Below are positions 2,531-58,300 of a stretch of 64,000 nucleotides of DNA, in pieces. The DNA is taken from positions 94,373 through 158,372 of the forward strand of contig JAJEKV010000528.1 in the NCBI GenBank assembly GCA_021234155.1, written 5' to 3'. Positions within the stretch are counted from its first letter, which is position 1. Each line of letters starts with the position of its first letter. The DNA is from Isoetes taiwanensis. Lineage: Eukaryota; Streptophyta; Lycopodiopsida; Isoetales; Isoetaceae. The position numbers and the translations under genes were made by a program. Below the pieces are notes generated by a model. The model was given only the letters and a program-made list of their open reading frames with translations. It ran no database searches and was not told where the DNA came from.

Positions 2531-2779
2531 GCTAGAAGTCGATTTAATTAAAGTGGGACTCATTCCATTCCCATTTTTTTTTGAACCCGTTAATTTACAT
2601 AAAAGTAGCACCAAGCCGAAAACTATCCTTAATTCGAATTTTTGAATAAAACTCGAATCTGAAGCCTTTGCTTTTTCCCAAAGTTTCCCAGTTGAAAGTC
2701 GAGAAAAAAAACAATGCAACTGAAACAAAGGAAATTCATTAAAAGTTTGAAACCAAAGATGTAGTTGAAAAAGAATTTT

Positions 2780-3371
2780 TATTAATAAATTGAAGCAGAT
2801 ACAATGTATTTTACATCGGACCTTGAGACCATGGCGGTCTTGTTTGTCACTACGATTACATCATCTTGGTAGGTGGTCCACCTTAGGGGATTAACTTGTG
2901 GCTTCTTCATGCCGTCAGAAGCCTTGGGGCAAACCCGAAGAGTGTGGAATGCCTCACGTGGAGGTGCCTCCTCGAGCCACCTTCGGCCGACCTGTCCACC
3001 CGACTTCTCCACTTTCGCCTCCCTTTGACCTTTCATGAATATGCTCCTTCCCCAACCTCCGTGGATGTTATGCAATGCTTGCAATATGCCTTGAGCTTCC
3101 CCTGGACTTTCTTTGTTCTTCGCCGTTTCTTTATTCCTGTGGTGTACCCAGAGCAACCTCTGAATTCATGGCGAGCAACCTTGTCCCCAAAGGCGGGCAA
3201 GAGTGTAGCGTGGCCTGGATGCGTGCTAACGGTATTTCTTCCGCCTTTGAGCTGGATCCGTACCCGCCGGAGCTCCCCTCGTGGATGCCTCGAAGCGGGA
3301 CTGTGGCCGTGTCGGATCTCAGGCTCAACCACCCGAGCAAGGAGAGTATGATTAACAATTACACGTGTCAT
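2780..3371 (-). other. Unrecognised GC-richer segment, open in several frames
   Basis: This segment is richer in G+C than the DNA before it, and overlapping frames of 75-150 codons are open on both strands. None has a motif I recognise. The minus strand gives basic, Gly/Arg-rich sequence at 3371-3033 and 3156-2782. Its low-coordinate edge, about 2807-2885, shares a broken block (GTATTTTACA, GAGACCATG, GATTACATCATCTT) with 25053-25115, just before the Ty3/gypsy relic. It may therefore be part of an LTR-type element. No function is assigned. Confidence 0.3.
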
Positions 3372-3459
3372 TAGTCAAAACGTAGAAAAGAACGCTGAAA
3401 TCAAATTACAACGAGAACATTCATTCCATACAACCCATCCAATGACGTGGGAAGTAGTG

Positions 3460-3790
3460 TTCTTTTCTAACGCGCGAGTCGAGAAAGGCCCATAAAAGTC
3501 AAAGTACAACCATTCTCATTAGAATATGGTTGCATCCAATCACACACACTGGAAGCATACAAATGCTTTTGTCAACTAGACAATTAGCATGCCTTTCTCG
3601 ACTTCAAGGCGAAGTCGAGAAAGTCCCAGAAACCCAATGTACAAGCATTATCATAATAGATTGTACAAGCATTTCATCAACACGACAAGCATGCCTTTTC
3701 GACTCGTGAGTCGAGAAAGGCATCAAAACTCAATATACAAGTATATTCATTACAAAATGGTCAATACATGTGTTCACGTTCGATTACAAT
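3460..3790. repeat. Tandem ~115-bp repeat carrying a palindrome, three units
   Basis: Three diverged units begin at about 3464, 3593 and 3694. Each starts with a palindrome built on CTTTCTCGACT...AGTCGAGAAAG and continues with a similar tail (CCCA/ATCA, AAA, a TACAA motif, CATT, TCATTA). The middle palindrome (3593-3623) has perfect 13-bp arms round a 5-base loop. The third (3694-3720) has arms with one mismatch pair round 'gt'. The same palindrome recurs at 4747-4772 and in the 6.4-6.8 kb array, so the block belongs to one repeat family that surrounds the unrecognised protein at 4.8-6.4 kb. Confidence 0.75.
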
Positions 3791-4804
3791 ATTCACACAA
3801 TTTGACTATCACGAAAGCGGGGTCACTCTTCTTGTTCACCAAAGTATTTGTCGTCCATAGCTTTATGATCGGCTTGCTCTCTGGATCGGGTTCCGTGGAG
3901 GCTCGGATAGTTCGTAAGCACATCGGGCGACAAGAATGGCAAAGGGATTCGCCAAGACAACAGAGTCGAAGGACAACCACCTATCCGCCTCATATTCTTC
4001 GTGTCGATATGGCTTAGCAATGATTGTATTTTCGCCGTTATGATAGCACTTGTAGGTGAGTCGCCTATGATCAGCGGTTGTGTTTGCCATAGTCCCGAAT
4101 TGCTCATAAACACCGCCCGACCTTTTCACCATTATAGGCTTCCCCTTTGTGATGGCTGGATCGAGGTCCTTTACATGCTCGACCCTTTCGTTTCCCCAAA
4201 ACGAACTTGAACTTCAAAACTGAAATGCCGAGAACACCAAGAACATTGACAATATTTTTCTTTTGCCATACAAGACCATATGCCCACTTCGAATCCCCGC
4301 GGCACCCGGTCAATAATTTCCTTAGCTCGGGCCTCGGATACACTATTTTATGCTTTCGTTGGCTTTCACCGATCTCGCGCGAGGTGTTAATCTGGGGACG
4401 TCTTTGTCGTGGGTATACTGCAGCTAATACTCCATTGACGTCAAATATTACAAGCTTGGTGGGACCGGTGGATCCCGTTGGAGTTTGGCTCGACCATATT
4501 TCCGTTCATGGGATCCAAATGCGGATCATTAACTTTTCGTGTTCTTTCCGGCCGAGGAGCAGTGTCTTGCTCCTCGGATTTTCATTCTCATTCTCCTCGC
4601 GACGTGGAACCGCTGGAATCCATTGACAATGATCAGGACTCGTTGAGCTCAATTCCCCTGAAATGATGACATCTCGCCGAGCGAAGGAACGAGTTTTTTC
4701 ACTTCGAGATCGAGAATGACAAGAAAAGGTATTGAAAGGAAACGAGTTTTCTTCGACTCATGAGTCGAGAAACACCGTTAGAGCAAAGTAAACTCACCTC
4801 AATC

Positions 4805-6437
4805 TCAGGTTTTCAATAATGTTTTCGGCAAAGTGCGGTCCAATCCTTCGACATCCTCGTCTCCGTCAGGTTTGTCTCCCTCGTCCTCGTCGTCTTTACT
4901 GCTTCCATTTGTCTTCCTCCCCTTGAAATGCTCATGAAGCAGATCCAAGTATGACTGAATGGTTTCAACCATGTCCTTATTTCCAACCACGGATATAGGT
5001 TTCATTCCAAACAAAGATAGCCCCCTCGAGAGAACGAGGCCATTCATGTACCACTCGCATACAATTTGATCTTCCCCACCAAGCTGGTTTGAAGTACTTG
5101 ATAACTCTTGGCGGATAGGAATTCTATGTATAGGACCGGTCGCACCATCCTTCATGACCTTGTCCATCGATGGAACATCCTCCATAAACCTGCCCCCTTC
5201 GAGGGGTTCCATCCGCTCTTGAGAGATCATGAACTTGTCGAGATAATGATGCTCGCTAGACCACCACTTATCCAGTCGTAGCCGATCTTGAAATCAAAAC
5301 CAAAACTATGTTGGCAAAGTTTGGTGCCTTCGGCAAGCCATGCACTCATGATCAAGTTAGATATGGAGTGCATGATCTTGTTGGTGAAGTTAATATCATA
5401 TGCCCATTGGGAGACAAAGCGGTTGTTTGATTGCCGGCATGCAAAAGACAAGGAACCGAAAGTATCCAGTCGGTCGTGTCGGTACATCGCCTTGTACCAA
5501 CGCTCTATGTCAGCTTTGTCATAAAAAAGGGTGGGGTCTTGATCATATTGATGGCAAATAGTGCCACGGGTCCAGTGCCGGTTCCGGACCACCGTCCTTG
5601 TGTCCCAAAGTAAATGTGAATGGGGGGAGCTATCGATGCGCCTTTAAATGGGACCACCGAATCCAAGCTTCCTTTTCGAATTGCCATAGCACGCGTTGAG
5701 GAAAGGAAGGGTTTTAACGTTACGCTTCAACTTGGTGTTGATGTAGGGTTGACATAGGCGGTTCAATTCCTTCATGTCTTCCTCATCAAGGGCAGCCTTT
5801 TCCTTGTAATAATCAAAATCATGGTATTCATTAGATGCAACGTTGGGTAGAACTCCGTGATGCCTTCTTCTACGCGCGCCGCCGCTTTAGGATTGTGGCA
5901 TAATCCTTTGCGCCCCGCATTTAGAACTCCCCGGTCTTCCTCGGCCAGGATTGTTCCCTCCAAGATTTTGCCTTGTAGGTCAAGCGTTTCTTTGTCCGTG
6001 AGGCCACAGATCCTCTTCATGAACTGCTTGTCAAACAACTTGGGGTCGGGCCTCGCTTGGAAATTCTCCATTGCCGTCCTTGACTTGCCTCTTGTCCATT
6101 GAGCCCATATGTGGTCCATTTCTCCGGCAGCCTCGAGGTGCTAAGAATGAGGTCGTATTGGTCCGAGAGAGACTCCCCTTTCCTTGGTGTTCTCTTCTTC
6201 TTCTCCTCTTCTTCCTCTCCCTCGTCATCTTCCTCGTCCCTCCAGTGAACATATCTCGCATAGTTTCTCAAAGGTCTTCCACTTATCAGAGGGAGCCCTG
6301 TTTCCTTTAGGGCCGAGGACAACCCAATGCTTTCCCATTTGTTGCCCAGTGTATGATCCGGGGGGATAAGGGCTGTGATTAGACAATGTACCAATGTCGA
6401 GCATGAAAGTATCTACAAACACCCGGGGAATAAACAA
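4805..6437 (-). pseudogene. Unrecognised protein, frameshifted, acidic segments
   Basis: I do not recognise this protein. On the minus strand a chain of overlapping open frames reads as one polypeptide shifted several times: 6437-6225 (GKHWVVLGPKGNRAPSDKWK), 6394-6017 (with an EEDDEGEEEEEKKKR run), 6119-5772 (KLFDKQFMKRICGLTDKETL), 5687-5505, 5592-5227 (ERWYKAMYRHDRLDTFGSL, then NRFVSQWAYDINF) and 5230-4805. The last has a charged end with DDEDEGDKPDGDEDVEG before the stop at 4805. Composition is protein-like: mixed hydrophobic and charged, with Trp, Tyr and Cys at normal frequency. No catalytic signature, zinc finger or membrane segment was seen. The palindrome repeats at 3.5, 4.75 and 6.4-6.8 kb lie on both sides, suggesting a mobile element whose internal gene this is. 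That is inference. Confidence 0.45.
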
Positions 6438-6454
6438 GTAAAATGTAGCCCGGG

Positions 6455-6836
6455 GTTTCGACTGCGTGAGTCGAGAAAGTCCCTTGAATGTCTAATTTTC
6501 TTTTACTTCTTCGGGGTTTTCGATTTCGCGAGTCGAAAGCTCTGCATCCTTTGATTTTTTCGCATTACCCTTGCCTTTCTGGGCTTCATGAGTCGAAACC
6601 CCCAATGATAATCGGCAAATGTTAGATGGCGGGGGCTTTTCGACTCAGCGATCGAGAAAAGTCATTCAATGTCTAATTTTCTTTTCTTGGCTAAGGTTTC
6701 TCGACTTCGCGAAGAGAAAGCTCCACATCCTTGATTTTTACGTGTTACTCGGGCTTTCGATTTCGCGAAGTCGGAGAAACCCGATGATAATCGGCAAATG
6801 TTAGGATGAGGGGCTTTTCGACTTCGCGAGTCGAAT
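6455..6836. repeat. Two ~190-bp tandem units rich in TCGACT palindromes
   Basis: Unit 1 (about 6455-6642) and unit 2 (about 6637-6817) share blocks in the same order: a palindrome of the TTTCGACT...AGTCGAGAAA type, 'CATTCAATGTCTAATTTTCT', a second palindrome, 'CACATCCTTGATTTTT', and 'GATGATAATCGGCAAATGTT'. A further palindrome starts at 6815 (TTTTCGACTTCGCGAGTCGAA). At least six palindromes lie within 380 bp, at 6456, 6517, 6637, 6697, 6755 and 6815. Dense direct and inverted short repeats next to a gene recall CACTA subterminal regions, but no CACTA terminus was found here. Confidence 0.75.
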
Positions 6837-7050
6837 GGAAAAAGATTAGCAGGAGTTATTTACCTTACGTAGGCGGCACTTTCGGCCGCTATTGTGTTCG
6901 GCAATGGCACGCCGCTTTGGGCGATTCCGGTTCTTTAGCGCGTCTCCGCCCGAAAGAACTCTGCACTCTCGCTTGGCATATCTATCCTTGATCTTTTGGC
7001 GGCACCTCCTTCTCTGCAATACTTGGCCGCCCTAAGCGAATGCTGACCGT

Positions 7051-8000
7051 CTACAACCCGTAAGGGACGTCTTTTCCCTTCGGATCTTCCTCGGACTTCC
7101 GATTTGAACAACTCATTGTCGATACGCTAAAGGTATGACATCCGCGCAGCATTGGATCCCTGGCGGATGTCGCATCGGATTGATCTCCCGGCATGTGTGC
7201 TGGATTAAATTCCACGTGGTTGAACAAGACGGCATCTCCGTGCAAACCTTGGTCACCGTCTAATGTCCAAAGCAGCGGCTTGTGTGATATTCCCAGCGGA
7301 TATCTTGAGCTAGGCAGCTCCATTTCGCCGTGCCTCCTCGAGAAATCACGATCCAGTCATGCGGATCGAGGTTTGGGAAGTCGACCATATCTTTCGTCTC
7401 CTTCGTCATCGACTCCTCGATGTGGTGTCATCATCCCCATCTTTGTTTTTTGGTGGACTTTTTGTGTATGAACCACAAACATTTCCCCCAAGTAGAGTGT
7501 TGTAGAGTCTTGACCACGGTAGGCGAAAGCTCCCCGTATTGAAAGCAGTTTTCACGACTCGAAATCTCCATACCAAGCTCCACGGATGTTAGGGTTCCGC
7601 CTCCTTCATCCCTTCGGATCCTTCACCCAAGGGTTACGACAATTTAAAGCGTGAGCTTTTTTCGGTGCCCTTAGCCTTGCTCATGGAAGAGTGAGAATAA
7701 TTTGAAACCGCTAATTTTTGGTGCGATAGAACTTACTCTTTCCGGCAATCGACATGTAGTGTTAAATGCTTTGAATGCGGGAGGAGGCGAGAGAGCACAA
7801 CACCGATTTTCTTGTACTTGTCTCCGGAGCTCTTCTTGTCCCTTTGGTGTAGAAAAGCAGTCTTTCTCCTTCCCACTTATCGATACCTCGACATACCACC
7901 AGAACCGCCATTTGTTTCAAGAAGCTCGTCTCCGATGATGTGAAGAATGGAGTTGCCATTGATCGCGATGAGTCAAGGGTGAATCCGCAAGAAGAACGGA
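7051..8000 (-). other. Possible continuation of the unrecognised protein
   Basis: The minus strand is open over 7323-7051 (90 codons, with LPSSRYPLGISHKPLLWTLD and CHTFSVSTMSC) and over 7959-7762. The sequence looks protein-like but matches nothing I know. It lies upstream, in transcription order, of the 6.4-4.8 kb protein on the same strand, separated from it by the palindrome array. It could be an upstream exon or N-terminal part of that gene, or a second gene of the same element. No splice sites were established. Confidence 0.3.
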
Positions 8001-8900
8001 TGGATCCCGGTTAAGGTATTAGACAAAAGAAAAACCTCGGGAGCTCACGGGGTGTTTGTCTTCTTCTTCTTCTTGCCCGTGGCGAAAGCATCCCCTCCTG
8101 GGCCTCGCTGCGGGCTCGAGTCATTTCTATATGCCCTCTCATCCTCTTCCGGACGACTCACGTAAATTAAGTTTCCTCCTCGGCGTTGTGAGTTTTAGGA
8201 CTCGCATGTAAAAGATCGGGCGTGTTCTTTAATTTGAAGTTAAAGGACATGCAATCATTTATGAAAAAAGGGAAGGGTACGTTACGATGGCGGCTTTAGC
8301 CAGCTTAAAACACTATTTCTGAAATTGAATCACATCAAGGGACTAAGTGAGTGGAGCGTAGTTTATCTTCCGCGGCATTGGGAACTCTCGAGGTCGGAGG
8401 GGATCATCGACCGCGGCGACTTTGGGAATGGCGCCCGACGCCAGTAAAAGCGCTAACGGACTTTGCATATGTGTTTTTCGACCCGGCGTCCTATTGCAAC
8501 CGAGTTGAATTGACGGCGATGCACGAAACTAAGGTAGGAAGCCCGGAGGGCTGCCGGAACAAGGAACTCTGCGATGACGCCATGGAAAGGGGATGAAAAG
8601 AATCGCAGTGATAATCTAATAATAGATCACGAATACACTCTTTGAAGAGACCGGCGTAAAAGCAAAGACTCGGGTGAGGCCGCGGGATTCGTGGATACAA
8701 AGGGCCAAGGAATTCTGCGTGAAAGGTGAGAGATGCCTATGTTATTTTGGCACGGAAACATGCCGTTATGTGTTTAAATAATGGAGCGATTTCTTTGTCC
8801 AAAGTGTTTGTCCAAGCATTTCTCGAGAGATGATTTACTCTCTAGGTTGAGAGATGCTCGAAGGAAACATTGGATCTGGGTAAAGCGATTCCGCTTTTAG
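8000..8900. other. No recognised gene
   Basis: Only short frames are present (81 codons at 8351-8596 on the plus strand, 69 codons on the minus strand) and neither has recognisable motifs. The sequence is moderately GC-rich like its neighbours and contains no clear tandem repeat. Confidence 0.4.
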
Positions 8901-8979
8901 GGTCCGTTTTTCCATGGATCATTTTACTTGGAATGTTGTACATAGATCAAAGGGCTAGGACTAAGGCCCAGGAGATGCA

Positions 8980-10240
8980 GTTCAAATGCATCCTCTTGTA
9001 GTTAGTCGGGAGGGAGCCTCCACTGGGTCTAGAACCACTCCCTCTTCGCACATTCGAGGAAGATGGTTCAAGGAGAGTGGCTCGGGCAGGCAGAGGCACT
9101 TGGGACTAAAAAAAGGTGAGAATAGAAAGTGCAAAGACTTGTAGAGAATGCAAGCCTTGGCTTCCTCATGGTTTCCCCCGTGGTTGGTTAGCCAGAGGCC
9201 TCACGGTCCCGCCCCTCCCCTTCGCCGCACTATTCGGCTAAGATGGTTCGGGCGAGAGTGACTCGATCAGGTCGAGGCCACCGCTACGGTTTCTGTGAGA
9301 ATTGGTGGCTAAGGATTCTCGACAAGTAGTCGAATGCTTGGTTTTCTCGTTTACATTCTCGGGGCAAGTCGAGAATGCCTTGGCCATCCAACTCGGTTAG
9401 TACACATGGAGTGCGGTTGGGTAAGGCATTCTCGCCTTCATGGCCAGAATGCATACTGTGCCAAGCTCGTGGAATGCATGCATTCTCGCCACCACACAGA
9501 GAATTGGGTTAGCAGAGTTGGCTGCCAAGCGGTAAAAACACTTCCCTTCAATGTCCGAGGAAGATAGAAGGAGAGTGTTTAAGGCCGTCACAGCGCCACT
9601 TAAAGTGCACTTTGCGTTTTTCTCTAAAACTCACACGAAGTCGACCCGTACCAAAGAATTTGTGGTTAGTCGCCCGAGGCCTCCCAATCGAGCTCATCCC
9701 TTCGCCGCCCAATGTCGGCGAAGATGGTTCGAGAAGGAGGCGGTCTTTGATGGGTAGAGCCCGCTGCGACCACACAGAGAATTGGGTTGCTAAGAGTTGG
9801 CTGGGGCGGTCGAAACCACTTCCCGCCATGATAGGGAGATAGAGAGGAGAGTGGTTGAGGGTATGCAGGCCGGCCTCGGGGTGCCTTCAGAGCACACCGT
9901 TTTCGACTCACCAGTCGAGGCGACATTTTCCTGATGGTTGATCATGGGGGCCTCAGCGATCCGGGCCAGGTCCCTTCGCAATATTCGGCGAGCATGGTTT
10001 GAAGGAGAGTGGCTGTTGGGTGGAGGCACCTCGCTAACTTGCAAAGAGCCATTGGCGGATCACATTCTCATCACGAAGTCGAGAAGCTCGCAAAGAAGGT
10101 TTCTAAAGAATGTGAAGAAGACATTGGGGTAGCCGCAATCCTGAATCAGCGAAGTCGAGAATCTCAACCGCCAAGCGATCAGTGTACACTCCTCTTCGCC
10201 TCGGAAGTCGAGAATTCTGGATTCAGTGAGAAAGAAGGCC
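8980..10240. repeat. Degenerate tandem repeat array, ~280-bp period
   Basis: The block 'CCTTCGC...ATTCGGC-GAAGATGGTTC...GGAGAGTGG' recurs at about 9049, 9222, 9703 and 9972, with a partial copy at 9545. A second block, 'CACACAGAGAATTGGGTT' followed by 'AGAGTTGGCTG', occurs at 9496 and 9772 (276 bp apart). The 'GGTTAG...GAGGCCTC' block occurs at 9184 and 9660, with a degraded copy near 9945. Half-copies of the TCGACT palindrome lie inside (9318, 9366, 9901, 10073, 10150, 10203), linking this array to the repeats at 3.5-6.8 kb. Open frames across it are by-products of the repeat. Confidence 0.65.
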
Positions 10241-10329
10241 CGCCTTACTTCCTTATTTGTTTGAAGTATTCTCAACCGCCACTCCTCTCGCGATGTCTCC
10301 CGAAAGGATTTCTTGTGAGTTAGAAATGG

Positions 10330-11230
10330 AGATTACGTGAAGCAATTCTATTAAATTCTTGCCGGGAGAAAGACATTCTAAGTTATTTTTACGTTAATGC
10401 TACCAACATCTTACTTCCTAACACCGGTCGGGATGATTTCTCTCTCAGGTTGCTTGCTACTATATCCACTATTCTCACTTGTGCATGTACAATGTATTCA
10501 ATTCAACCACAAGCAAGGAAAAAAGATAACAAAAAAGAACAATACAAAGATTATTAAGATTAATGAGAAAACAGAGAAAAGTGGAGAACAAGATGCAGGA
10601 GAAAAGTGGAGAACGAAGAAAAATGAGATTAAAAAGGGTATGATATTACAAAAACATACCCGGAAGATTTGGTTGGATGAGGAGGAGGCTTCCGACTTGA
10701 TTCCATGTGGGTATAGTCGTTGACAAAGCGTGAATAAGGATTTGTCGGTACGCCAGAATTGTATCGGGATTAATAAGAGCCTCTAACAACAGAATATAAG
10801 AAAAATGCACTCAAAAAGACTTACTTAAAACTAAAAGCAAAGCACAAAAAAGGGCCTCACTTTCTTCTCAGTACGTGTAACGCCTCAATGAACAATGAAC
10901 CTCGAGAACTGGCTGGAAGCGCCCCGATCGGTCGACCAAAGCCGGGCCGTCATAAGATGGCGCCGAATCGCTCGGTTTGATCGATCACCGACGGTAAAAG
11001 CGGGCGCCCTAAGGAAAAAGTGGAGCTCAAGGAGTGATCCGAGAAAACAGGGGAGGAAGAATGGTGGGGAGAGGAAGAGGGTGCCGCACCGGGCCGCACC
11101 CTCTAACCTCGTAAAGTGCAATAATACCGTTACGTCGCGTGTGGGCCATGCCCTCCATGACGTGGCAAAGGCGCGGTTAGCCGCGTGGCCACGGTTTCAG
11201 CCTACGAAGAGGCCACGTGGCCATGCCAAG
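10330..11230. other. No recognised gene
   Basis: Frames of 78-113 codons exist on both strands at 10397-10723 and 10885-11236 but show low-complexity (Lys-rich) or strongly Arg-biased composition without motifs. There is a compositional step from AT-rich (10.4-10.85 kb) to GC-rich (10.9-11.2 kb). Confidence 0.4.
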
Positions 11231-11234
11231 ATAT

Positions 11235-11490
11235 GAAAGGGTTGGTTATATGTTTATATATGTTGTCTTATGTATTTAATAAGGTTTCAATGGTTGAATA
11301 GTATCAATGGTATATATGGTTACAATGTTCACATATGGTTTAGAATGAGTGTGGTTGTATGCTTTAATATGGTTATATGATTTTAGTTAATATGGTTGTA
11401 TGATTTAATATGGTTATATTTAATATGTTTGTATGGTTTTATATGGTTCATATGGTCATATTTGTGGTGTTTGGGGCTATATGGTTTTAA
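11235..11490. repeat. AT-rich 'atatggtt' degenerate short repeat
   Basis: About 250 bp is built from imperfect copies of ATATGGTT and TATATGGTT separated by short T/A-rich spacers. Three examples are 'atatggttacaatg', 'aatatggttatatga' and 'tttatatggttcatatgg'. It lies immediately upstream of the DUF7869-like coding relic. Confidence 0.65.
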
Positions 11491-11499
11491 TGTGAGCTT

Positions 11500-14126
11500 T
11501 TTCATTCGGGGAGCATGTGAGATGAGTAAAATGGAGCCGGGGAAGTCCAAAGGAGGCCATTGCCCTAGGCTCCAATGGAGGAGGATGGGTTGCCTTTTGT
11601 TGCACCCTTGCAAACAGATGGTATTTCTGAGAGGCATAATAACCATGCAGGTTGATCCATTTGATAGTGTGAATGATGAGAGGGGAGATGAACATCTTGG
11701 AGTTGGCATTGTGAAGCTTCTTATCGAAGTTGATACTATCATGTCCCGTGGAAGCTCTAGTGATTGCATTTGTGCTCGAATTGCCGGAGTCCCAAGCTCG
11801 ATTGAGATGGCCAATTAGATTTATTACACACAAGAATGGTGATACTCTAGAATGCCCTCTTGAACTACACACCCCAAGGCCCACCCAAGGCCATGTGGAA
11901 GATTTGGTGGTCGATGAGCATCCTTTGATCACAAGGAAGAGACGCTATGTCTTTCAAAAAGGCGACCAAAAAAGGTGCCCAAGAGGCCTAGAAGTGACAA
12001 ATATTTAGAAAGGATGGAAAGTATGGCACCAACCAAAGAAAAACCACGAGGCAATTAGGGACAAGAGTGTTGCAACCTAGATTGCCAAAGTGCATTACAA
12101 TGTGGATGACCTCGCATGAGATAAGGTCCCAATACATTGGACTGACTTCAAAAAAAGATAGGATTAATTTCATTTACTCCTTGTGTAGGAATTCCGGCTA
12201 TGATGAAACAGGGACGGCTGCTATATCAATTGAGGGGAATGAAGGTATGTATGAGAGCATTGAGATGGATTCTTGGGGTGAGCAAGTCTTCATTTTCTGA
12301 CATCTGGGAGCAGGTTAGAAAAGGGCACACTTTTGTTCCAACATGGTAATGCACTCACTTTGAAACCTAGAGCAAATACTCTAAAGGCCATTGCAGTCTT
12401 CGAGCTTTGTGAGATACATGTCTCAATCTATGCCCCACAAGTCGAAGGTGAACGAGCACGGTGTGCGCGAGTGGTGCAAAGAGTGTTGCCACAACACTAT
12501 ATCCCAAAAGGAGTGCCTTAAGGAGGTCAACTCCATCCTAGAAACCACCGGAGGAGGTAGGCCTCTTTCTCAATCACATTTCAGCAAGTTATGGAGCACT
12601 CACTTTCGGACGTGGAGTGTCCTACAACACATGCCATTCTCAAAGTGCAACACTTGCATTCAACTCAAGGATACACTTGCATCAAGCGCAATAGAGAAAG
12701 AAAGAATGGCAATTAGGGGAGCAATTTGCGAGGATCACCAAAGGGACCAAATATCATGTAGAGCAGGTTGTATTGGCGGTGGAGAACATTTTTCGAGATG
12801 CAAATGGGACAAATTTTTGTGTATAATTCATGATAAGATGGACCAACACAAGACTTTCTTGCCAAAGCTAGATCCTTTACCCAAGCATTGTCAAAAACGC
12901 TTTTCGGATGAAAGTAAGTCCGGCGGGTGTATTAACACATGGTCATGGAACTGGAACATATGGTCATTTTGTGCTTGATCTATGGAGAGATGATCCAAAC
13001 TTCCATGTGAGCTCTATTTTCAAGTGCTTGAGAACACTAGAGAAAGGATCGATAGAAGGGAGGAGGTATTCCCCTTGAGACCCATTTTTGAGGCTTTGAT
13101 GGATGATCAACGGCTTTGTTACCAAAGGCAGATAAAAAGCTCACATCCAAGGTGCCTAGTGAATCAAGGAGGACTTGGGATGATTTCCCCTTACTAGAGA
13201 AATCACCGCCGAGGAGCTATGTGTTCAGTTGGACAAGCTGTTGGAAAGAAAACAAGAATAGATGGATGTTTGGGGCAATGTCATACTTGGCAAAGAAGTG
13301 GGGAGTATTCAAAGTTGTGAAAGTGGGATTCATGATGGTTGGGCATACGATGATGATATTGATGGATTCTTTGGAACTTTCTCCACCAAGCTCAAAGAGA
13401 AAACGTGACCACTCTCCCCGAACTAATGGATGTGTTTGAGAGCTGCATTGACCCCAACCCAATGGCTTTTCTTGATGGATGAGGTTGCGATTGGAAATCA
13501 TTTGTAGAAGGATACTTGCTAGATGGCAAGGACCGGTTTGAGGACACACAAAGCCACTTCAATTCAAGTTTTGAGTTAGGGATGGCCATGTGGGAGGGAG
13601 CTAAGAGACGGGTTCTTGCGAGTCAAGATGGGAGGGTTCTCAAGGTGCAAACACGTCTAAGAATGCTCACTTGGGTCCCAAGTGGTTTTTAGGAAGTAAG
13701 GCCTCAAAGTCGAAAGTGGTTTGATCTTCCCCGAAAGTGGGATCCCTTTGAGGACATCAAGGAAGGATACTTTGTGCTAGTAAGGCCTGATGATGAGGGA
13801 TCGGCCCAATATGGTTAGGGGTGGCACTCTCTAATGTGACCACCACTATGCGATGGAGAGGAGTTGCGCCCGGATTCCAAATTCAATATTGGGAGCCCAT
13901 TGGGAGGCACAAGAAGGGCAACTTGAAGGGAGCAATACACCGATCGGGGGAGAAGAAGTGGAGGCCAAATTATGCTGACCCTCAAAAGGAGGGAATTGGT
14001 GGAGTGTGTGGTATGGTCATATCCAAGTTCTCACATTGCAAAAGACAAACACACAAGATCCCAAGAAAGGAGATGGACAAGGCCATGAGCAACCTCCATG
14101 CTATATCATTGTATGAGGGTGCATAA
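11500..14126 (+). pseudogene. DUF7869-family transposon-type protein, frameshifted
   Basis: This family (catalogued as DUF7869) is present in many copies in plants and is thought to be transposon-derived, with a DDE/RNase H-like core. The plus strand preserves its landmarks in order but in shifting frames. These are a Cys-rich stretch KCNTCIQLKDTLASS and MDQHKTFLPKL (12391-12978), a THGHGTGTYGHFVLDLW block near 12930-12985, ENKNRWMFGAMSYLAKKWGV then VKVGFMMVGHT (about 13240-13345), and DDIDGFFGTFSTKL (about 13350-13395). After these come WDPFEDIKEGYFVLVRPDDE (about 13738-13797) and a C-terminal region ending QIQYWEPIGRHKKGNLKG...WRPNYADP (13821-14126). The N-terminal part (about 11500-12300) is weaker. 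At least five frame changes are needed, so as it stands it is not translatable. No terminal repeats or target duplication were identified. Confidence 0.82.
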
Positions 14127-14344
14127 TATTGAGAAGTTTGAAAACTTTTCTCAACTAGTGGTTTGTAAAATTTATGAGGAAAACAAGTAACCCAATTCTA
14201 TGTGTGTCATGTGTAATTCTATTCAAGCAATCAATTCAGAAATTTCTTTTATGGTGTGTGAGTCCCATTTTCGGTCCGAGTCCCAAAATTCAAGATTTGT
14301 CCCACTTTAATTAAATACGACTTTTAGAAGTTATTTGTGAATGA

Positions 14345-55687: not shown

Positions 55688-58300
55688 CTAGGCTCCAACA
55701 TGCCAAGGTGACTCAAACATGCCAAGGTGGCTCAAACATGCCACATGAGCTCCAACATGCCACCTAAACTCCAACATGCCAAGGTGGCTCAAACATGCCG
55801 CGTGGGCTCAAACATGCCCGGGCTCCAACATGCCACCTAGGCTCCAACATGCCAAGGTGGCTCACATGTCACCTAGGCCCTAACATGCCACCCAGGCTCA
55901 AACATGCCAAGGTAGCTCAAACATGCCATGTTGGGGGCTCCAACATGCCACCTAGGCTCCAACAAGCCAAGGTGGCTCACTGCCATATGCCACCTAGGTT
56001 CCAACATGCCAAGGTGGCTCAAATGTGCCACATAGGCTCCAACATGACAAGGTGGTTCAAACATGCCAAGGTGGCTGAAACATGCCACGCGGGGCTCCAA
56101 CATGCCACATGACTCAAACATGCCAAGGTGGCTCAAACATGCCATGAGGACTCCAACATGCCAAGGTGGTTGAACCATGCCAAGGTAGCCAAACATGCCA
56201 CGCGGGCTCCAACACACACCTAGGCTCCAACATGCCATCTAGATTCAAACATACCAAGGTGTCTCCAAACATGCCATGGGCTGCAGCGTGCCACCTAGGC
56301 TCAAACATGCCATTTAGGCTCCAACATGCGACCTAGTCTCAAACATGCCAAGATGGGCCAAGGTGCTCAAACATGCCAGGTCACTCAAACATGCCACCTA
56401 GGCCACCTAGGCTCAAACATGCCAAGGTGGCTCAAACATGCCAAGGTCACTCAAACATGCCACCTAGGCTACCTAGGCTTAAACATGCCAAGGTGGCTCA
56501 AAACATGCCACCTAGGCTTAAACATGCCGAGATGGTTCAAACATGCCAAAAGGTGCCTCAAACATGCCATGTGGCTCCAAGGTCACCTAGGCTTAAACAT
56601 GCCGAGATGGTTCAAACATGCCAAGGTGCCTCAAACATGCCATGCGGCTCCAAGGTCACCTAGGCTTCAACATGCCAGTAGCTCAAACATGCCAAGGTGG
56701 CCCAAACATGGCACCATGGGCTCCAATATGCCACCTAGACTCCAAGATGCCAAGGGCTTCAAACATGCCGCCTGGGCCCAACATGCCACCTAGAATCAAA
56801 CATGCCAAGGTGGCTCAAACATGCCATCGGCTGCAACATGCCACCCTAGGCTCAATCATGCCACTTAGGCTCCAACATGCCACCTAGGCTCAAACATGCC
56901 AAGGTGGCTCAAACATGCCATGTGTGCTCCAACATGCCAAGGTGGCTCAAATATGCCAAGGTGCACAAAAATTCAGTCAAGGCTCCAACATGCCCCATAG
57001 GCTCAAACATGCCACCTAGGCTCAAACATGCCACCAGGGCTCCAACATGCCACCTTAGGCTTAAACATGCCAAGGTGGTTCAAAGATGCCAAGGTGGAGT
57101 GGCATGCCATGCGGCTCCAAGGCCACCTAGTCTTCAACATGCCAAGGTGGCTTAAACATGCCAAGGTGGCTCAAACATGGCACACTGGGCTCCAATATGC
57201 CACCTAGCCTCAGGTATGCCAAGGTGGCTCAAACATGCCACCTCGGCTCCAACATGACACCTAGGCTCAAACATGCCAAGGTGGCCTAAACATCCTAGGC
57301 TCCAACATGCCACCTAGGCTCAAACTTGCCAAGGTGGCTCAAACATGCCACGTGGGCTCCAACATGCCATCTAGGACTCAAACATGCCAAGGTGGCTCAA
57401 ACATGCCACCCTGGGCTCCAAGATGCCAAGGTGGTGGAAACATGTCCCGTGGGCTCTAACATGCCAGGTGGCTCAAACATGCCATGTGGGCTCCAACATG
57501 CCACCTAGGCTCCATCATGCCAAGGTGGCTCAAACATGCCACGAGAGGCTCCAACATCCACCTAGGCTCAAACATTCCAAGGTGGCTCAAACATGCCACA
57601 TGCAGCTCCCACATGCCACCTAGGTCGCAACATGCCACCCAGGCTCCAACATGCCAAGGTGGCTCAAACATGCCACGTGGGATCCAACATGCCACCTACG
57701 CTCCAACATGCCAAGGTGGCTCAAACATGCCACCTAAGCTCCAACATCCACCTAGGCTCAAACATGCCAAGGTGTCTCAAGCATGCCATGGTGGTCATGT
57801 GAGCTCCAACATGGCCCTAGGTTACAACATGCCACAGGCTCCAACATGCCAAGGTGGCTCAAATATGTCAAGGTGGCTCTAACATGCCATGTAGGCTCCA
57901 ACATGCCAAGGTGGCTCAAACATGCCACGTAGGCTCCAACATGCCACGTGGGCTCCAACATGCCACCTAGGATCAAACATGCCAAGGTGGCTCAAACATG
58001 CCACCCAGGCCCAACATCCATCTAGGCTCAAACATGCCAAGGCTCAAACATGCCACGATGCTCCAACATGCCACCTAGGGCCCGAACATGCCGTGGTGGC
58101 TCAAACATGCTACCTAGGGCTCAAACATGCCAAAGGTGGTCAAACATGCCAAGGTGGCTCAAGTAGGCTCAACATGCCACCTAGGTTGCAACATGCCACC
58201 TAGGCTCCAAAATGCCCAGGTGGTGCAAACATGCCAAGGTGGCTCCAACATACCCACGTGGGCTCCAACATGCCAAGGTGGCTCAAACATGACACCTAGA
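55688..58300. repeat. 2.6-kb minisatellite of 19-bp units, two alternating forms
   Basis: About 130-140 units of 19 bp. The two main forms are CTCAAACATGCCAAGGTGG and CTCCAACATGCCACCTAGG, which alternate irregularly, with point variants (CCACGTGGG, CCATGTGGG, CCACCCAGG). All share CAACATGCC/AAACATGCC. The variable 9-mers CCAAGGTGG and CCACCTAGG are complementary to each other except at one position, so neighbouring units of opposite form can pair. Nineteen is not a multiple of 3, so open frames of up to 155 codons on both strands rotate through the same His/Cys/Met-rich peptides. I regard these as repeat by-products, not genes. Confidence 0.95.

Follow-up and report, generated by a model that had tools for sequence, protein, structure and literature searches.

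A stretch of 64,000 nucleotides of the quillwort Isoetes taiwanensis (contig JAJEKV010000528.1, positions 94,373 to 158,372; here the window) raises the question of what a short palindrome, recurring over several kilobases around a gene of unfamiliar type, belongs to and what it might do. A preliminary description, made from the letters alone, had suggested that the palindromes and the gene at 4.8-6.4 kb may be one mobile element, with ends to be sought near 3.4 and 10.3 kb. The mobile element is borne out by terminal inverted repeats (TIRs), 4-bp target duplications and a boundary common to 18 loci; its actual ends lie at 2536 and 14323, making it larger than the block first noted. The window segment 2536-14323 represents a complete copy, of the long type, of a DNA transposon that is abundant in the quillwort genome. 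An unexplained repeat is thereby placed in a transposon family whose ends are known exactly, with its target duplications, a probable transposase and a specific candidate binding site.

Borders of the element

The following features delimit the window copy.

2536..14323, + strand: complete TIR DNA transposon of the long type, 11,788 bp, delimited by the left boundary in 17 other loci, the right reverse-complement terminus and the flanks
2532..2535: left target-site copy, CTAG
2536..2559, + strand: left TIR, AAGTCG(T)ATTTAATTAAAGTGGGAC, one base missing
14299..14323, - strand: right TIR, 25 bp
14324..14327: right target-site copy, TTAG

From the genome assembly (1,658,258,908 bases in 1,110 contigs), stretches of at most 10 kb were taken around 20 perfect-palindrome places, covering 22 of the 38 perfect places listed. 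Alignment to the window revealed a sharp boundary at window position 2536 common to 17 of these 20 palindrome-first stretches, with unrelated flanks, giving 18 loci with an identical left boundary when the window is counted. As for the other three, the left end of L008 lies 1.7 kb beyond the fetched stretch, L005 carries the right end, and L013 aligns with interior portions of the long type.

The terminus is a 25-bp inverted repeat, AAGTCGTATTTAATTAAAGTGGGAC. A mismatch scan located its reverse complement at window position 14323 and, for eight of the short copies, 3.5-6.3 kb along; TIRs at both ends were present in the window copy, in the eight short copies (with two mismatches in L024) and in L012 and L015. 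Two long copies, completed with extra sequence, measured 12,362 and 12,151 bp. A third, L014, measured 10,105 bp, its right end being an altered stub of only about 18 bp. At the right end of L014 (with L026) the sequence between the transposase gene and the last ~18 terminal bases is gone while the 4-bp duplication is exact, reflecting either a deletion after insertion or transposition with a minimal right end.

The target duplication is 4 bp long, exact in 11 of 12 complete copies, and a fifth base never matches. The window copy agrees in three of the four bases (CTAG/TTAG), and at L006 a repetitive target also allows a 7-bp reading. Allowing up to two mismatches, 1,581 left ends (767 + 814) were counted genome-wide, with none for the reversed control.

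Distribution of the palindromes

In the palindrome, the arms TTTCTCGACT and AGTCGAGAAA flank a centre that is mostly 4-6 bp long. The window was scanned by fuzzy search and by exact search for the 9-bp half-site, AGTCGAGAA/TTCTCGACT, which yielded the following sites.

2697..2705, + strand: subterminal half-site AGTCGAGAA, at about element position 162
3463..3720: left palindrome cluster with three sites (3477, 3593-3621 and 3695-3717)
4748..4771: single palindrome with centre CATG
6455..6836: array of seven palindromes or near-palindromes with starts 59-62 bp apart (6455-6477, 6517-6538, 6577-6598, 6636-6658, 6695-6719, 6755-6778 and 6814-6836)
9315..10214: right internal cluster of sites and half-sites (9315-9335, 9367, 9899-9921, 10065-10085, 10153 and 10206)

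At every one of the 16 places given in the preliminary description, a full or half copy stands no more than a few bases away; those at 6577-6598 and 2697 are additional. The 24-mer by which the palindrome had been represented is absent from the window even when three substitutions are allowed, because the window copies hold small insertions or deletions; it nevertheless occurs at 404 genome places with up to two mismatches (reversed control, 0). The tandem units of 115, 190 and ~280 bp in which the palindromes were thought to sit did not materialise: Tandem Repeats Finder reported no such array at 3.4-10.3 kb, and self-similarity within the window was weak (6456-6655 versus 6638-6834 at 75%; 9488-9584 versus 9766-9860 at 77%).

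All 12 exact half-sites of the window fall inside 2536-14323 and none in the remaining 52 kb; 60 first-order Markov simulations of 11,788 bp each averaged 0.05 and never exceeded 1. Copies were also sampled by their ends: 20 of 100 listed left ends were chosen regardless of palindromes and the first 1.6 kb of each examined, 12 being of the long and 8 of the short type by best match. Exact half-sites occurred at 0.65-1.36 kb from the left end in 18 of the 20, and past position 200 the set held 91 half-sites versus 0.45 expected (maximum 4 in 200 mononucleotide shuffles). These figures bear on whether the palindromes could stem from something independent of the transposon, either satellite DNA or another mobile element nested within the window. 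Such an origin would agree with the differing bodies around the palindromes in long and short elements and with the several unit lengths first reported; it is highly improbable given that all 20 palindrome-first stretches proved to be element sequence, that 18 of 20 end-first stretches carried half-sites, and that no exact half-site of the window lay outside the element.

An exact half-site recurred at element position 155-167 in 12 of the 20 end-picked copies. In short elements a palindrome stands 511-571 bp before the right end in seven of eight complete copies; in L021 the distance is 932 bp. The palindromes are not restricted to the outermost parts of the element: the outer cluster stands 0.65-1.36 kb inside the left end, and the others lie deeper. 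Between sites less than 200 bp apart, 11 of 15 short-type pairs showed spacings of 58-68 bp and 7 of 10 long-type pairs spacings of 125-130 bp, or approximately 6 and 12 helical turns.

Among the end-picked copies CGCG was the commonest centre, accounting for 5 of 21 sites in the long type and 7 of 26 in the short type; the 24-mer therefore represents one variant. A covariation test of the centres gave mixed results. Six-base centres were palindromic in 34 of 49 cases versus a mean of 22.9 under shuffled pairing, a value reached in 0 of 2,000 shuffles and biased because many loci had been fetched for perfect copies with 6-bp centres; 4-bp centres were palindromic in 35 of 72 versus 31.6 (330 of 2,000 shuffles reached 35), and 5-bp centres less often than under shuffled pairing (1 of 36 versus 8.4). 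The outermost element bases, AAGTCG, also lie within the half-site GAAGTCGAGAA of the TCGCGA variant, a coincidence that hints that one protein may read both.

Long and short elements

Consensus left arms were built from 18 long and 12 short copies, with L009, L020, L045, L017, L018, L022, L023 and L035 excluded. The two consensus sequences are identical at 94 of the first 100 bases and at 208 of 285 aligned bases at positions 101-400. Past position 400, every 14-base word that they have in common falls inside a palindrome, in agreement with the earlier remark that the palindrome is kept while its context changes. The long-consensus palindromes at 918, 1046 and 1173 align to short-type ones at 27 of 30, 31 of 32 and 31 of 32 bases, the form common to both types being GCCTTTCTCGACTCGCGAGTCGAGAAAGGC. 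Such retention in a changing context is as expected of a protein-binding site. Overall long-short identity past position 400 was 0.61-0.71 of aligned bases in a gappy alignment, the significance of which cannot be judged because free end gaps gave trivial alignments in the shuffle control; the comparison consequently rests on shared words and not on percent identity.

A blastn comparison of four short copies with the long copy L012 gave matches over the first 169-235 bp and, for three of the four, also over ~65 bp at the right end; the L006 array gave one extra match of 86 bp at 77%. None of the four matched the 4.8-6.4 kb gene. Palindromes and gene can thus occur independently, which had been named beforehand as grounds for abandoning the single-element interpretation, yet the gene-free copies share the ends and the 4-bp target duplication. 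For this reason the short elements are assigned to the same transposon, of which they are a non-autonomous class. One of them, L017, contains at element positions of about 380-2,900 a 2.5-kb CT-rich low-complexity block whose translation is rich in Ser, Leu and Pro.

Genes of the long element

Two genes, both with broken frames, were recognised in the window copy.

about 11715..14126, + strand: frame-broken DUF7869 gene, probable transposase, with profile-supported pieces at 12385-12978 and 13107-13439
4104..6412, - strand: frame-broken gene, aligned in nine long copies

Part of the frame breakage may be due to nanopore errors in repeats, as the genome was assembled from nanopore reads with polishing according to an excerpt of PMC8566536.

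The DUF7869 protein, whose Pfam family has yet to be assigned a function, is probably the transposase of the element and would have a DDD-type core. The piece from L015 matches the Pfam model with E = 3.2e-12 (46.9 bits, above the cut-off of 26) and that from L012 with E = 6.6e-5 (23 bits, just below it). A profile made from six longer DUF7869 open reading frames (ORFs) of the same genome matched nine pieces of three copies (E <= 0.01, best 1.5e-12), including the N-terminal half. Three motifs, VIDG.DQ, LQLDNTTRENKN and VGHTHDQID, do not vary among four other aligned Isoetes DUF7869 ORFs; they resemble the three acidic sites of RNase-H-type transposases and, by eye, would fit a DDD triad. Two observations tell against the assignment. 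Motifs one and three align in the present element and the second acidic motif does so only partly, because of the frame break; and a search of the DUF7869 profile against solved structures (PDB) returned no meaningful relative (best E = 3.3). A tblastn search of the L015 protein against plasmids gave no match.

The minus-strand gene at 4.8-6.4 kb, which the preliminary description had left unrecognised, is probably not the transposase, the DUF7869 gene being the better candidate. Its piece at 4104-4505 is weakly NLI/FCP1-type phosphatase-like via the sister copy L007 (NIF, E = 0.05, below cut-off); the window copy of this piece had no Pfam match, and against PDB sequences the fragment gave one match, to a molecule named CAP REPEAT (E = 0.002). 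The first ten window fragments searched against Pfam returned nothing at E up to 0.1.

DUF7869 is itself widespread in the genome. A first look gave 9,902 candidates, and all of the best 150, which were scored, exceeded the cut-off, while the count for control genomes was 0 of 14; some of the ORFs are in open frames of up to 987 amino acids. This amplification suggests that many transposon families are hidden under the unknown-function name. Another DUF7869 family, represented by L049 and L048, has a perfect 34-bp palindrome (L049, 525-558) at a common left boundary on the 5' side of the DUF7869 ORF. Comparison of these two loci disclosed no clear TIRs or duplications for that family.

A candidate protein-binding array

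By analogy with CACTA subterminal repeats, the palindromes probably constitute a cis-acting array that is bound by an element-encoded protein and works in a similar manner. The array lies in the left arm and is repeated deeper in long elements, and most short elements have a further palindrome some 0.5 kb before their right end. A dimeric protein, encoded by the DUF7869 gene or by the minus-strand gene, would bind the palindromes and thereby mark left arms for transposition; it would probably also regulate excision or expression, as TnpA does on the CACTA subterminal repeats. Short elements, which lack these genes and keep the ends and the palindromes, would be mobilised in trans.

Several observations weigh against a binding array of this kind. 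Two of the 20 end-picked copies have no array (L035 without any half-site and L045 with only that at position 163). The arrays are asymmetric, and no exact half-site was found in the last 4 kb of complete long elements (n = 4; 2.2 kb for the right-deleted L014), so that recognition at both ends is unsupported for long elements. Centres of 4, 5 or 6 bp would be odd for a rigid dimer site. Within the long type, conservation of the palindrome columns falls below that of the adjoining ones (mean major-base frequency, 0.806 versus 0.861), while within the short type, from which L035 was excluded, it exceeds it (0.836 versus 0.725); and recombination among arrays, rather than selection, can also keep words alike.

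The lack of better conservation within the long type would equally suit a selfish tandem repeat devoid of any binding role, multiplying within the element through replication slippage or hairpin-mediated repair, as would the variation in copy number and unit body among elements and the trimming of the centre from TCGCGA to CGCGA and CGCG. We nonetheless hold such a repeat to be distinctly unlikely, because near-identical palindromes persist between two types that share no surrounding 14-base word, because they recur near the same positions, and because one copy lies at nearly the same distance from the right end in seven of eight complete short elements. The palindrome might, alternatively, be a host transcription factor or chromatin site that drives the expression of element genes as a promoter or enhancer and is not a transposition site. 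The 6455-6836 array lies directly upstream of the minus-strand gene piece at 6017-6412 in the window, and the regular spacing of the sites fits cooperative regulators; short elements with no match to these genes retain arrays at a similar place in the left arm, however, as would not be predicted from a promoter role alone, and we consider this role unlikely.

Host gene fragments in short elements

The scan for cargo covered ten ORFs, taken from eight complete short elements and one partial one; two of these nine elements contained host gene fragments. One is a chalcone synthase fragment at L018:3561-4190 (PF02797, E = 3.3e-25; PF00195, E = 4.7e-16) and the other a pectinesterase fragment at L022:6371-6655 (PF01095, E = 1.7e-38). 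The ORFs of the other seven elements had no Pfam match over the curated cut-off. Both fragments look like Pack-type captures. Pack-MULEs and Pack-TIRs are non-autonomous elements with host gene fragments between transposon ends (excerpts of PMC10741241 and PMC8277862), an arrangement that the short Isoetes elements resemble; they differ from Pack-MULEs in that, with 4-bp duplications, the element is not a Mutator. The fragments point to gene shuffling in a lycophyte by a route other than Mutator elements.

Relationship to known transposons

By its features the element is a TIR DNA transposon (class II). The comparisons with named groups draw on excerpts of the papers cited. The best candidate superfamily, by its described features, is Sola. 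Sola elements are described as having 4-bp target duplications, TIRs and a DDD transposase, with sizes of 2-9 kb and some over 15 kb, and they are known from the moss Physcomitrella patens (PMC10741241). The Isoetes element has 4-bp duplications, TIRs and a candidate DDD pattern; it differs in its palindrome arrays, which are not part of the Sola description in the excerpt of PMC10741241. No model named Sola was among the Pfam results for the element pieces.

CACTA (En/Spm) elements offer a parallel to the arrays considered here. In soybean Tgmt*, the asymmetric subterminal repeats can form palindromes, 2 at the left and 12 at the right; they reach no further than 159 and 732 bp inward from the ends, and a TnpA-like protein is presumed to bind them (excerpt of PMC2613891). 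Like Tgmt*, the Isoetes element is large, with short TIRs and asymmetric subterminal repeats, and gene-bearing copies exist alongside derivatives that retain the ends and the repeats. Repeated subterminal motifs are likewise present in 18 of 20 Isoetes left ends, but not at the right end of the long elements, and the outer cluster, at 0.65-1.36 kb inside the left end, is placed differently from the Tgmt* repeats. The Isoetes ends begin AAGTCG instead of CACTA or CACTG, the duplication is 4 bp and not 3 bp, and the protein is of the DUF7869 type; CACTA was rejected on its ends and duplication length. Ginger elements have target duplications of 4-6 bp, a range that includes the 4 bp seen here, together with 5'-TG...CA-3' ends and TIRs of 40-270 bp (excerpt of PMC10741241). 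The Isoetes ends, AAGTCG with no TG...CA, and the 25-bp TIRs differ from these, and Ginger was rejected accordingly. Mutator was rejected because the duplication is 4 bp and not 7-12 bp, and hAT, PIF and Tc1 on their ends or duplication length (definitions from the excerpt of PMC10741241).

Judging from search results alone, the literature searches made turned up no apparent description of this element family or of DUF7869 as a transposase. It is possible, though we think it rather doubtful, that the DUF7869-transposase lineage (at least 150 scored members and thousands of first-look matches) forms a superfamily-level plant transposon group of its own, in which phased palindrome arrays, to which a protein of the element would bind, would act as a remote left-arm enhancer of transposition and short derivatives would capture host genes as a lycophyte counterpart of Pack-MULEs.

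Other sequence in the window

Outside the element, window positions 55691-58291 are occupied by a 2.6-kb minisatellite with a 19-bp unit, GGCTCAAACATGCCAAGGT, and higher-order periods, followed by CT and CA repeats up to 58709.

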